Shown here: positions 2,904 to 10,483 of the stretch, piece by piece | Position numbering within the stretch: the first letter of the stretch is position 1 | How the letters are laid out: the number at the start of each line of letters is the position of its first letter | Source of the DNA: Nitrospirota bacterium | GTDB taxonomy: Bacteria; Nitrospirota; Nitrospiria; Nitrospirales; Nitrospiraceae | Length of the DNA stretch: 32,623 bases | Direction of reading: 5' to 3' | Assembly (NCBI GenBank): GCA_028876065.1 | Contig: JAGWTI010000033.1 | Location: forward strand, 1 to 32,623 | The notes under the pieces: model-generated | What the model saw: only the letters and a program-made list of their open reading frames with translations | Database searches by the model: none | Told to the model about the DNA's origin: nothing | Program-made: the position numbers and the translations under genes

Positions 2904-2961
2904 CACGCCGTCCCCCGGATTCATGACGGCGGAAAATCTCCGCACCGCCGCACGACGCCCC

Positions 2962-3783
2962 ATGAAACCACCGCTCTTCATTGCCGCAGTCCTGACCCTC
3001 CTGCTGACCGGCTGCCAATCCGGCCCTCCCCAGCGCCCCCAGCCGCAGACCGACCACGGGACACTCGTCACCAAGGACCACGTCAAGACCACCATCGAGC
3101 ACGAAAAGGCTTTTGCCCAATATTACGATGTGCCGGCTCCGGCAGGAGAGAACTGGTTTGCGATCGACGTGGGACCGACTCCCGTCCTGGTGGTAGCCGG
3201 CCATGCCACCGCACACACCCGGGAAGGCGCACGCAAGGCGGCGGACCGAGGCACCGGGTCCCTGGCGGTCATGTTGCACAAGCTGACGGGCGTCACGGCG
3301 ATCTATACCGTGTATGCAAGCCCGTCGGACCCCAACTATGACGACGACAATGCGTTCAAAGAAGCCCTGTCGAACCTGCTGCAAGCATTGCAGCCGACGC
3401 TCGTCCTCGACTTACATACGTCCCACGCAGACCGGCCCTATGCGGTGGACTTCGGGACAATGGCAGGCCAGTCCCTGTTAGGACGGGCCGAGCTTCTGGC
3501 GAACCTGGAGGAGGCGCTTAGGCAGGCAGGGGTGGAGGACCTCTCGAACGAGTCTTTCTCGGCCCAACGCCACCACACGATCACGAAGTGGGTGGCTCGG
3601 CAGGGGGTGCCCGGCATTCAGCTGGAGATCAATTTCACGTGGTTGGCCCATGCCGGCGACAATCCGACGGAGGCCCACCGCGTCGCCAAACTGCTCCAAG
3701 GCTTGGTCAACTTCCTGCAACGCTTCGAGCCCAGCGAGGCGACCGAGGAGTCACAGTCCCTGCCGGCTTCCGCCCCACGGTAA
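2962..3783 (+). CDS. Lipoprotein with N-formylglutamate-amidohydrolase-like domain
   Basis: From the ATG at 2962 the protein has 273 residues and begins with a lipoprotein signal peptide ending in LLLTGC (Cys18), so it should be anchored in the envelope. An upstream ATG at 2923 would add 13 polar residues before the signal and is less likely. The body contains VLVVAGHATAHTREGARKAADRGTG, then TLVLDLHTSHADRP and GIQLEINFTW, a layout that resembles zinc-dependent N-formylglutamate amidohydrolases and related peptidase-like folds (the conserved H, D/H and E positions are present). The enzymatic assignment is tentative. The gene ends 17 bp from the convergent methyltransferase gene, with no clear terminator between. 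Confidence 0.72.
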   Translation: MKPPLFIAAVLTLLLTGCQSGPPQRPQPQTDHGTLVTKDHVKTTIEHEKAFAQYYDVPAPAGENWFAIDVGPTPVLVVAGHATAHTREGARKAADRGTGSLAVMLHKLTGVTAIYTVYASPSDPNYDDDNAFKEALSNLLQALQPTLVLDLHTSHADRPYAVDFGTMAGQSLLGRAELLANLEEALRQAGVEDLSNESFSAQRHHTITKWVARQGVPGIQLEINFTWLAHAGDNPTEAHRVAKLLQGLVNFLQRFEPSEATEESQSLPASAPR

Positions 3784-3800
3784 GAACGCGCGGCCCCGTG

Positions 3801-4589
3801 TCAGCCGGAGGCCCTATCCCCAGACCCGTCCCTGTGCCCCACGACGAGCCAATCCCAGGGAAGCGCTTTCCCCTTGAGCCGCGGGTGGCCGTCCTCAAAC
3901 CCTTCTTCGGACCAGGGAATCCAGACGCGGCGGGCCGTGCAGTTGCGAAACCCCGCCTGCTGTATCGCCTCGAGAATCTCCGGTTTCGAAAAATACTTTT
4001 GCGCCACGCCGTCGCACATCAAGATGCCGCGGGAGAGCAGCTTGCGCTTCGTGGCTCCCGTCAGTTGGCCCGTCTTGATCGTGCGATGGACGAACAGCGT
4101 GGACTCCAGCGAAGGCACCACCAGCAAAGTGGTGCCTTCCGGATTCGTCAACTTCCACAAAGACCTGAGCATCTTGTTTCTGATCCGCTTGCTCGGAGAA
4201 GTGACCACGTTCAGGCAGACCGTCAGGTCCCCGGTCGGCATCGTCCCATGGTCGATCCGGCTCAGATCGGCCTGCAGCCATCGCACATTGGAGACGCCCC
4301 GGCAACGACGCCGCGCGTAGCGCAGCATGTTCAGGGAAAAATCCGCCCCGTAGACGGACTGAAAGCGACGGCCATGGGTTTGGATAAAGGTCCCGATGCC
4401 GCAGCCCAGATCCAGCAAGACGGATCGCGAGAAGTCGCGGCGCAGTCCCTCGATCACCCGTTCGATGACGTTGCGGCTGTCCGCCGCGACGATGTCGCAG
4501 ACTTCGCCCTCGAAAGCATGGGCGAGGCGTTCCCACGATCCGCGCGTGAGGCCGCACGGTTTCAACGGGGCCGCAGCGTCAGGAGCCAC
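3801..4589 (-). CDS. Class I SAM-dependent methyltransferase
   Basis: The core carries the SAM-binding motif I VLLDLGCGIGTF (about residues 57-68 from the chosen start), an acidic ADFS motif II after strand 2 and a QADLS segment, characteristic of small class I methyltransferases. The substrate cannot be deduced. I chose a GTG at 4589, giving 262 residues and an 11-bp overlap with the upstream acetyltransferase gene, consistent with translational coupling. An ATG at 4670 is possible but would add 27 low-complexity residues and overlap by 92 bp. It is the last gene of the leftward PLP enzyme - acetyltransferase - methyltransferase cassette, so it may act on a product of those enzymes (inference). 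Confidence 0.83.
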   Translation of the reverse strand: MAPDAAAPLKPCGLTRGSWERLAHAFEGEVCDIVAADSRNVIERVIEGLRRDFSRSVLLDLGCGIGTFIQTHGRRFQSVYGADFSLNMLRYARRRCRGVSNVRWLQADLSRIDHGTMPTGDLTVCLNVVTSPSKRIRNKMLRSLWKLTNPEGTTLLVVPSLESTLFVHRTIKTGQLTGATKRKLLSRGILMCDGVAQKYFSKPEILEAIQQAGFRNCTARRVWIPWSEEGFEDGHPRLKGKALPWDWLVVGHRDGSGDRASG

Positions 4590-5421
4590 GGCTGTCCCAT
4601 CTCTTCGCCAGGCCTGCGGCGATCTCGCCCTGGTCGATCCCGAAATGGTCCTTGAGCAGGGCCCGGACATCGTCGGGATGGGCCACCGTCACCTGTCGGG
4701 TCCCGTCCTTCGTCCGAATTTTGAGCTTCTGATCCAGCAACATCACACGTCCTTGGCGAGTCGGTTTCGTACAGATGACGTGCCGCACGAACAGGGAATC
4801 CGGCGAATGCGAGTTGTAATAGTTGGCCACTATATAGTCTTCCGGCCGATACTGTTCAAGCGTAAACTCGTAGAGGTCATGCCACGACCCGGCGAGATCG
4901 TGCTGCAGGGTAAACGCCGGCGCCTCGGCGTCTCGATGTCCCACCACCCGAAAACGGTCCGCGTACTGCCGTTCGTCGTGCCCGTCGCGCAACGGCAGCG
5001 GCGCGATCAACCCGTTCCCGCCGAACCCCACGTCGGCGATCCATCGCTCGCCGCCGGCCTCCACCAGCAAGACTTCATGGCTTCTCGGCCGAACCGGCGC
5101 CGCGCCGGACAGAACCCGGGCCATCAGACGGCGCACGGCGAAGCCGAGCCGTTCGAGCATCACCGCGAACAGCCCGTTGAGTTCGTAACAATAGCCGCCG
5201 CGCCGTTCGTGGACGATTTTCCGGAAGAGTACGGACGGATCGAGGGAGATCGGCCGCCCCAGATGCACGTCGAGGTTCTCAAAGGGAACGGTCAGGACAT
5301 GGGCTTCATGGAGGCCCCGCAAGGTCTCCACCGAGGGGTCCAGCGTCCCGTGATAGCCGAGCCGGTCGGCATAGGCCGCCACATCGAGCGGCGCCTCCTC
5401 CCTGGCGTGCGGATCAGACAT
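4579..5421 (-). CDS. Arylamine N-acetyltransferase family protein
   Basis: This 280-residue protein has the full NAT signature. The N-terminal VPFENLDVHLGRPISLD is followed by RGGYCYELNGLF with the nucleophile Cys78, SHEVLL with His115 and WIADVGFG with Asp130, forming the expected Cys-His-Asp triad. NAT enzymes move an acyl group from CoA to arylamines, hydrazines or, in some biosynthetic pathways, close amide bonds. The length fits the family (about 260-290). It starts four bases after the stop of the class V PLP enzyme and overlaps the methyltransferase gene, so the three are probably one operon. The true substrate is unknown. Confidence 0.94.
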   Translation of the reverse strand: MSDPHAREEAPLDVAAYADRLGYHGTLDPSVETLRGLHEAHVLTVPFENLDVHLGRPISLDPSVLFRKIVHERRGGYCYELNGLFAVMLERLGFAVRRLMARVLSGAAPVRPRSHEVLLVEAGGERWIADVGFGGNGLIAPLPLRDGHDERQYADRFRVVGHRDAEAPAFTLQHDLAGSWHDLYEFTLEQYRPEDYIVANYYNSHSPDSLFVRHVICTKPTRQGRVMLLDQKLKIRTKDGTRQVTVAHPDDVRALLKDHFGIDQGEIAAGLAKRWDSRGS

Positions 5422-5425
5422 GGGC

Positions 5426-6754
5426 TCAGGTCGCGAGGGTCCCGACCGTCTGCAGGGTCTTCTCGACGTCCTCCGGCGACGTCAACAAGCTTGGGGCCAG
5501 GCGGACATACTTGGTCGCGTAAGGAGTTTCGCTGGCGACCACTCGTCGTTCGCGCAGACGCTTCACCGTCTGTGCCGGCGTCAACCCGTCGATCTCGAAA
5601 CAGACGATGCCGGCCGAGAGGTCCTCCGCCATCGGCGTATGGACCCTCACGTGCTTCATGCGGACCAGCCCCTCCTTCAATTGCCGGTTCAGCGCATGGA
5701 TGCGCTCGGCGATGCGCGCCTTGCCGATCGCCAGGTGGAATCGAAACGCCTCGTTCAAGGCCCACCGGTGTTCGAAGGAATGGAATCCGCCCGGCGTCAT
5801 CAGGGCCGACCGTGGGACCTCGTGCGGCGGAATCTCTTGCATCCAGATGCGGTAGGCTTCCAGGTTGAACGTGGGAATCGTCGCCTGGGCCAGGGGCCAG
5901 ACGCCGGGCTTGCCCCAGACCACGCCGGTTCCGCGAGGGCCGAGTATCCACTTGTGGCAGCCGGCGATGAAGAAGTCGCAGCCGAGATCCGCCATCGTGA
6001 CATTCTCGGCGCCGAAGCCGTGCACCCCGTCCACGCACAAGATCGCCCGGTCTGTTTCGTCGCGGGCGGCATTGACCTGAGCCAGCGCCTCGGCCATCTC
6101 GCGGATCGGCAACTTGAGCCCCGTGCTCGAATGGACCCAGGTGACGGCCACATAGCGGGTCTGGGGCCTGACGTTCCGGATGAGGGTCTCGACGATTTCC
6201 TGCTTCGAGACGGTCTTCAACTCTTGATACAAGGGAATCGTCCGCACCGATGCGCCGGTCCGCTCGGCCCGGTGCTGCCAGGAGACTTGCGTCGAGTAAT
6301 GGTCGTGAGTCGTGGTGAGAATTTCCTGCCCCTCGCGAAGAATCAGCCCTCCATACAGCAACCCCAAGCCCATGGTCGTGCTGTCGGTCAGAGCGATGTC
6401 CACGGGATTGACGCCCATATAGTCGGCCGCGGCCCGCAACACCTCCGCTTCGAACCGTTCCTCATTGTCGGCCCAATAATGGGCCGGGTTCTCGTCGAGG
6501 CCGCGGCGGTGCCGCTCGATCGCGGCGCGCACCGGAGCCGGGTGCGAGGCCAGCAAAAACCCCGTCATGTGGATGAACTCGCGCGAGAGGAGGAATTGTT
6601 TGCGCACCGCCGGCCACCCGGCGAATTTGGCCGGCGGCTTGGTCGAAACGGCCTGGGCCAACGCAGGCACAGCCCCGGACAAGAGGCCGGCGCCCAGCGT
6701 CAACCCTGTCCGGATCAGGAACGCCCGGCGGTTGAGATCAGGACGATGTTCCAT
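5426..6754 (-). CDS. Tat-signal class V aminotransferase / desulfurase-like PLP enzyme
   Basis: The protein (442 residues from the ATG at 6754, chosen over a GTG nine bases upstream because AGGTGAGG precedes it) starts with a twin-arginine signal, NRRAFLIRTG, followed by a hydrophobic stretch ending at ALAQA. The mature part is a fold-type I PLP enzyme of aminotransferase class V: TDSTTMGLGLLYGG, the cofactor-binding CVDGVHGFG, and the Schiff-base lysine in CHKWILGPRGTG (Lys268). Relatives include isopenicillin-N epimerase-like proteins, cysteine desulfurases and kynureninase-like enzymes; the reaction cannot be fixed from sequence. A Tat-exported PLP enzyme is unusual and suggests a periplasmic role. 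First gene of the three-gene leftward cassette. Confidence 0.9.
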   Translation of the reverse strand: MEHRPDLNRRAFLIRTGLTLGAGLLSGAVPALAQAVSTKPPAKFAGWPAVRKQFLLSREFIHMTGFLLASHPAPVRAAIERHRRGLDENPAHYWADNEERFEAEVLRAAADYMGVNPVDIALTDSTTMGLGLLYGGLILREGQEILTTTHDHYSTQVSWQHRAERTGASVRTIPLYQELKTVSKQEIVETLIRNVRPQTRYVAVTWVHSSTGLKLPIREMAEALAQVNAARDETDRAILCVDGVHGFGAENVTMADLGCDFFIAGCHKWILGPRGTGVVWGKPGVWPLAQATIPTFNLEAYRIWMQEIPPHEVPRSALMTPGGFHSFEHRWALNEAFRFHLAIGKARIAERIHALNRQLKEGLVRMKHVRVHTPMAEDLSAGIVCFEIDGLTPAQTVKRLRERRVVASETPYATKYVRLAPSLLTSPEDVEKTLQTVGTLAT

Positions 6755-6899
6755 GGCCCTCACCTGCCTTTCTGTTCACGCCCTTTTTTCACTATACACC
6801 ATACAACCCTTGCCGGAACAAACCAAGGGTCGGGAAGTGACGCGAACCACATCGGTTCGGGCGTTGCGGCTTCTGTGGTTGCTGCTGAACAGGCAGGGA

Positions 6900-6929
6900 G
6901 ACGGGACCTCGGCAAGACGAGGCCCCGTC
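6900..6929 (-). terminator. Terminator-like hairpin after the small secreted protein gene
   Basis: GACGGGACCTCG and CGAGGCCCCGTC form a 12-position stem with one mismatch around a six-base loop, 17 bases past the stop of the leftward gene ending at 6947. The following bases on that strand are pyrimidine-rich but lack a clean T run, so the termination call is moderate. Confidence 0.5.
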
Positions 6930-6946
6930 CTGTCGACACGGAACCG

Positions 6947-7297
6947 CTATTTGACCTCGACGGTAATCGTCTGGGTCGCAGCCACCGGCTTATGGTCCTT
7001 GGTGGCCCCGGTCACAGTGATCTGGTGTTTGCCTGGAGCCACGCCTTTAAAGGTGCCGCCGAATCCCTTCTGGTATTGGCCGTCCAAGTACACGTGGGCA
7101 TGGGCCGCCTGCGAACCTTTGGTCAGTTCGTATTTCAGGTCGAAGGTATCGCCGACCATGGCTCCGTCCTTGGGAGCCGTGATCGTGATCTTCGAGCCAT
7201 CCTCGATCGGCTGATCCGCGGCCATGGCCGAGGCTCCCATTGCACCCATCATCAGCACAGCCGACACGGCGATGGCGAACAACCGATTGGTCACCAT
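6947..7297 (-). CDS. Small secreted protein with beta-sandwich-like domain
   Basis: The ATG at 7297 is set by a strong ribosome site, AAGGAGGAAATC just upstream, giving 116 residues. The first 27 or so residues are a classical signal peptide ending ASAMA-ADQ. The mature part has an Ig-like or carbohydrate-module flavour: ITITAPKDGAMVGDTFDLKY, then HAHVYLDGQYQKGFGGTF and GKHQITVTGATKDHKP, ending TQTITVEVK. Short periplasmic domains of this style (DUF4399-like or similar) have no assigned activity and I cannot name a family with certainty. It lies 14 bp after the small lipoprotein gene and ends before a terminator-like hairpin, so it is the last gene of the gcvP-led transcript. Confidence 0.82.
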   Translation of the reverse strand: MVTNRLFAIAVSAVLMMGAMGASAMAADQPIEDGSKITITAPKDGAMVGDTFDLKYELTKGSQAAHAHVYLDGQYQKGFGGTFKGVAPGKHQITVTGATKDHKPVAATQTITVEVK

Positions 7298-7311
7298 GAT
7301 TTCCTCCTTCT

Positions 7312-7581
7312 CTATGGTTTCTCCCGGCTCTCGCGGCCGCCGACCCCCACGGCGGCCGGCTGAATCTCGCGCAAGGTTTGGGAATAGCCGGAACAATACT
7401 CCCGGGCCTTTGCAGGCTCCTTTTCGTACCATTCCATACACTCACGGTAGGCCCGGATCAGGTCCGCCGTCTCGGACCGGATGTCCGCCGTGCCCTTCAT
7501 CATGCGGAACTCTTCATAGTAATGGCAGCCGGCTGGCCCGCCCAGCAACGCGCAGACGCTCGCACACAGAACCCACCGCAT
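7312..7581 (-). CDS. Small lipoprotein, unknown function
   Basis: The 89-residue product starts at the ATG at 7581, preceded by a GAGGAGAG ribosome site. Its signal peptide ends at GPAGC, so Cys19 is the likely lipidated residue. The mature chain is mostly helical in character (IRSETADLIRAYRECMEWYEKEPAKAREYC) with two further cysteines, and a glycine-rich tail. I do not recognise the family. It begins 10 bp after gcvP and is followed 14 bp later by another exported protein, suggesting cotranscription, but a functional link to glycine cleavage is not evident. Confidence 0.75.
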   Translation of the reverse strand: MRWVLCASVCALLGGPAGCHYYEEFRMMKGTADIRSETADLIRAYRECMEWYEKEPAKAREYCSGYSQTLREIQPAAVGVGGRESREKP

Positions 7582-7591
7582 CGCACTCTCC

Positions 7592-10483
<2,892 letters not shown>

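Follow-up and report, generated by a model that had tools for sequence, protein, structure and literature searches.

A PvdN-like PLP enzyme with a predicted Tat signal beside gcvP in Nitrospiraceae, and its N-acetyltransferase and methyltransferase neighbours in one genus

Introduction

A PLP enzyme with a predicted twin-arginine (Tat) signal, an arylamine N-acetyltransferase (NAT), and a SAM methyltransferase are encoded in close succession in a genome of the Nitrospiraceae. A preliminary description of this DNA likened the trio to a small tailoring pathway. Two questions follow: what kind of enzyme is the one with the export signal, and do the three work together?

The closest characterized relative of the PLP enzyme proves to be PvdN. 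PvdN is the Tat-exported PLP enzyme of Pseudomonas that converts the glutamate of pyoverdine to succinamide (PMC6206403), and the available portion of that review reports its chemistry for pyoverdine tailoring only. We found no literature joining PvdN with Nitrospira or with glycine dehydrogenase, and the sources on Nitrospira and isopenicillin N epimerase were metagenome surveys.

Layout of the Locus

The window, that is, the whole stretch of 32,623 nucleotides that was analysed, belongs to a genome of 3.4 Mb, where it forms contig C29. The features of interest are collected in Table 1.

Table 1. Features of the PvdN-like locus and its flanks (positions in the window).
Feature	Position	Strand	Match or remark
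PvdN-like class V PLP enzyme, predicted Tat-exported, 442 aa	5426..6754	-	PF00266 (Aminotran_5), E 1.6e-34
Arylamine N-acetyltransferase (NAT), 280 aa	4579..5421	-	PF00797 (Acetyltransf_2), E 9.1e-73
Class I SAM methyltransferase, 262 aa, GTG start	3801..4589	-	PF13649 (Methyltransf_25), E 2.3e-12
gcvP, glycine decarboxylase; neighbours the PvdN-like gene upstream, as is conserved in the family	7592..10480	-	PF02347; synteny
Small ORF whose start resembles a signal peptide; between gcvP and the PvdN-like gene	6947..7300	-	no Pfam match
Short ORF, probable lipoprotein (Cys-containing N-terminus), between gcvP and the PvdN-like gene	7312..7653	-	no Pfam match
Convergent lipoprotein-like gene	2923-3783		flanks the methyltransferase side

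The Pfam matches bear out the three enzyme families that had been named, all on the minus strand, and the ORF coordinates agree with the packing that had been described: 4 nt separate the stop of the PLP enzyme gene from the ATG of the NAT gene, and the start of the methyltransferase gene overlaps the NAT stop by 11 nt. The flanks were also correctly given: gcvP lies upstream in the same orientation, and the gene on the other side is convergent. The span assigned to the set, 4579-6754, contains the PLP enzyme and the NAT but leaves the methyltransferase outside, as the set extends to 3801.

The 11-nt overlap recurs in two genus mates (G001 and G002), and the position of the methyltransferase start codon, GTG or TTG, is kept in all four genomes of the host genus. 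For every gene and pair measured (the NAT from three genomes, the PvdN-like and methyltransferase genes from four), dN/dS lies between 0.12 and 0.23. All three frames are under purifying selection and are, therefore, not chance ORFs. There is no Rfam match to RNA elements within the window, and promoter and terminator scans of positions 3500-8000 gave signal no higher than that of shuffled sequence. The product of the convergent gene has a sub-threshold match to N-formylglutamate amidohydrolase (28.3 bits, the cut-off being 28.9), and neighbourhood clustering found this gene common to two genus mates.

Relationship of the PLP Enzyme to PvdN

The best NCBIfam match of the PLP enzyme is PvdN (NF051467), at 424.7 bits, which is below the equivalog cut-off of 650 bits. 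Its top PDB matches are the PvdN structures 5i90 and 5hh9 (E 1e-102), it is 42% identical to 5i90 over the whole chain, and 5i90 ranks first in a fold comparison with the predicted model (mean pLDDT 76). The pLDDT of this model falls below 50 at residues 1-40, 62-69, 267-273, 293-299, 304-306, and 308-324; since the model is partly weak, it carries no active-site claim. The preliminary description was right about the families and the Tat signal, but it missed both the relatedness to PvdN and gcvP as a conserved neighbour.

In the class V fold of PLP enzymes, a conserved Lys carries PLP and an Asp pairs with its ring nitrogen. The PLP enzyme has the features of this fold, and K268 and D242, which would fill these two roles, align to 5i90. 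The two proteins share their motifs around the PLP lysine. Near-invariant residues in 70 full-length Nitrospiraceae sequences are R9-R10, S125-T126-T127, H152, D242, K268, and R418. Differences from PvdN are also present: the loop after the PLP lysine is longer here (about residues 300-312 of the query, a gap in PvdN), and His208 stands where PvdN has Gln.

The N-terminus of the PLP enzyme, MEHRPDLNRRAFLIRTGLTLGAGLLSG, has the form of a twin-arginine signal like that of PvdN, with the twin Arg at R9-R10. As a sequence prediction, the signal that had been claimed for this enzyme holds for the family: RR-x-F-L is present in 71 of 74 Nitrospiraceae loci, the exceptions being one with RRQAL and two in which the N-terminus is missing. 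TatC was found in all four genomes of the host genus. The tatC gene is doubled in each of them; in G000, the copies lie at C149:6080-6751 and C19:3325-3942.

Is the enzyme then a true PvdN, working on a pyoverdine-like siderophore? Its whole-chain identity to PvdN and the retention of every matched catalytic motif speak for such an assignment. However, the NCBIfam score falls well short of the equivalog cut-off, the neighbourhood is that of gcvP and its Pfam-named genes include none for pyoverdine, and an NRPS condensation domain was found in 0 of 4 genomes of the host genus, in a search whose control was positive in 4 of 14 known genomes. Since the condensation domain is absent from the genus, pyoverdine is a very unlikely substrate here, and a pyoverdine or other NRPS setting was rejected. 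We find it scarcely credible that this is PvdN itself.

Distribution of the Three Genes

The PvdN-like gene occurs in 74 of 175 Nitrospiraceae genomes (1e-30), the NAT in 60 (1e-10), and the methyltransferase in 4 (1e-10). In an evenly drawn sample of 395 genomes of the phylum, the PvdN-like gene was found in 53 (1e-60), all of them Nitrospiraceae. Among 17 named loci with a PvdN-like match, 14 are good relatives, in records titled Nitrospira/Nitrospiraceae, Deltaproteobacteria, Acidobacteria, Polyangiaceae and Myxococcales, Paenibacillus, Flavisolibacter, and Segetibacter; the remaining three, from Planctomycetes records, match only weakly and in part. Four plasmid records hold a relative (1e-40), two of which, from Pseudomonas aeruginosa, are annotated as pvdN.

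Two copies in the family look truncated. The locus of G129 (L154) contains an N-run, so that its truncation is an assembly gap. In G122 (L155), a copy with only about residues 260-440 lies about 135 nt after gcvP, in a locus with no N-run; it looks like a real remnant, an apparent case of gene decay in one species.

The NAT has an Acetyltransf_2 domain with the catalytic triad Cys79-His115-Asp130 and resembles the known arylamine N-acetyltransferases, with full-length matches to PDB 2bsz and 1e2t. It differs from them in its place directly after a PvdN-like gene, an arrangement of the host genus only. Elsewhere in the Nitrospiraceae, clustering of 30 NAT loci, from the 60 NAT-positive genomes, gave no clear partner, with antisense frames dominating the clusters.

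The methyltransferase shares the SAM-binding fold motif LLDLGCGIGTF with the BioC, UbiE, and CpaM models, yet it scores far below every curated NCBIfam cut-off and falls in no specific family. At 1e-8, it is matched in 8 of the 395 phylum genomes, of which three are from the host genus; the matches in the other five are 30-36% identical and, therefore, too distant to name a function. A structure model of the methyltransferase was discarded (pLDDT 36; three sequences).

Is the Trio One Pathway?

Of the 74 PvdN-like loci, 4 have the NAT and the methyltransferase as neighbours; these come from 4 of the 175 genomes, all of the host genus. One of these four is broken. In G003 (L085), the NAT between an intact PvdN-like gene and an intact methyltransferase gene is a pseudogene, with its start codon lost or changed, a 1-nt shift, and a 181-nt deletion that spans the region of the catalytic His and Asp; the copies in G000, G001, and G002 are intact. 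Conservation of the three genes jointly across relatives is, accordingly, lacking. Nor are the PvdN-like gene and the NAT associated in the family at large: both were found, from the match tables at 1e-30 and 1e-10, in 22 of the 175 genomes, against 25.4 expected (Fisher p 0.33). In all 18 joint genomes outside the genus, the two genes are not adjacent, being on different contigs in 15 and at least 176 kb apart in 3.

It is possible to imagine a dedicated pathway in which an amine is acylated by the NAT and then methylated in the cytoplasm, and the product is exported and finished in the periplasm by the PvdN-like enzyme. The tight packing and the overlap, which G000, G001, and G002 all retain, would fit with this, as would the low dN/dS of all three genes, and NATs are documented in secondary-metabolite clusters, according to the available part of PMC11213898. 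Nevertheless, the set has no exporter and no scaffold-building gene, the NAT is dead in one species of four, none of the remaining 70 PvdN-like loci shows the trio in the flanks that were retrieved, and joint genomes are no more frequent than expected. We therefore regard a dedicated pathway as unlikely. Of the tailoring proposal, the enzyme families, the Tat signal, and the packing stand; the pathway idea itself is weak, as the trio occurs in a single genus, and it is weakened further by the loss of the NAT where both its neighbours are intact. The gene set is real, but its reading as a pathway is poorly backed.

The Link to gcvP

What is conserved around the PvdN-like gene is gcvP. Of the 74 Nitrospiraceae loci, 69 have it upstream and in the same orientation, within 3 kb in 67 and at 3.5-3.9 kb in 2. 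The gap, counted from match end to match start, is at most 269 nt in 56 of the 67, two of which (L154 and L155) have a C-terminal match only. gcvP was not on the fetched stretch in the five remaining loci; four of these have less than 1.5 kb upstream, and in the fifth, L103 (3.6 kb upstream fetched), gcvP is on another contig.

Given this arrangement, the PvdN-like enzyme might act with GcvP in glycine or one-carbon metabolism, for instance through periplasmic amino acid handling, with the operon link functional. The same-strand adjacency and the short gaps favour such a role. Against it, gcvP is present in 160 of the 175 genomes and the PvdN-like gene in 74, so that roughly half of the genomes have gcvP but no PvdN-like gene; GcvP is a cytoplasmic protein; and no gcv gene was found beside the relatives outside the Nitrospiraceae within the flanks examined. 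A functional tie of this kind strikes us as improbable.

The adjacency may instead be inert, conserved gene order. Nearby genes are also conserved, among them those for a two-component system, an SdhA-type flavoprotein, a trypsin-like PDZ protease, GcvT, a NUDIX protein, and a FIST protein, and part of the gcvP linkage may, therefore, be plain conservation of gene order. The conservation extends across gcvP, and none of 20 sampled gcvP loci in genomes without the PvdN-like gene shows a trace of it, both of which allow for an inert adjacency. Over 60 genomes, the distance matrices of the PvdN-like protein and GcvP correlate with r 0.94. This agrees with a shared vertical descent, which alone would yield such an r.

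Discussion

The explanation that we consider probable is that of an ancestral gcvP-pvdN pair, whose exported PLP enzyme acts on a substrate other than pyoverdine, and to which the NAT and the methyltransferase were added in one genus. The core would be these two genes, passed down as a pair within the family. The PvdN-like protein would probably be loaded with PLP on K268 in the cytoplasm, fold, and then cross the membrane via Tat. Once in the periplasm, it probably acts on a small molecule or a peptide, at a free alpha-amino/alpha-carboxyl group. In the host genus, the NAT and methyltransferase genes would have been added directly downstream, with translational overlap; the NAT, transferring acetyl to an amine, and the methyltransferase are probably separate cytoplasmic enzymes, not obligatory steps with the exported one. 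Some points sit less easily with this explanation. In three of the four genus genomes, the trio is intact, retains the 11-nt overlap, and is under purifying selection, as would be expected of a shared pathway; the adjacency to gcvP may be inert; and the relatives outside the family are without an adjacent gcv gene in the flanks examined.

It is tempting to go further and propose that the PLP enzyme, exported throughout the family and made together with glycine decarboxylase, decarboxylates a common periplasmic molecule bearing an amino acid and forms an amide in doing so, as PvdN does, and that the NAT and the methyltransferase extend this in one genus. We hold this to be a long shot; if true, it would mean that PvdN-like chemistry is used outside siderophores in Nitrospira-type bacteria. 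The family-wide link between gcvP and the PvdN-like gene is the part of the finding that deserves further study. A PvdN relative beside gcvP across many genera of the family, with no condensation domain found in the host genus, suggests an unassigned periplasmic PLP reaction.
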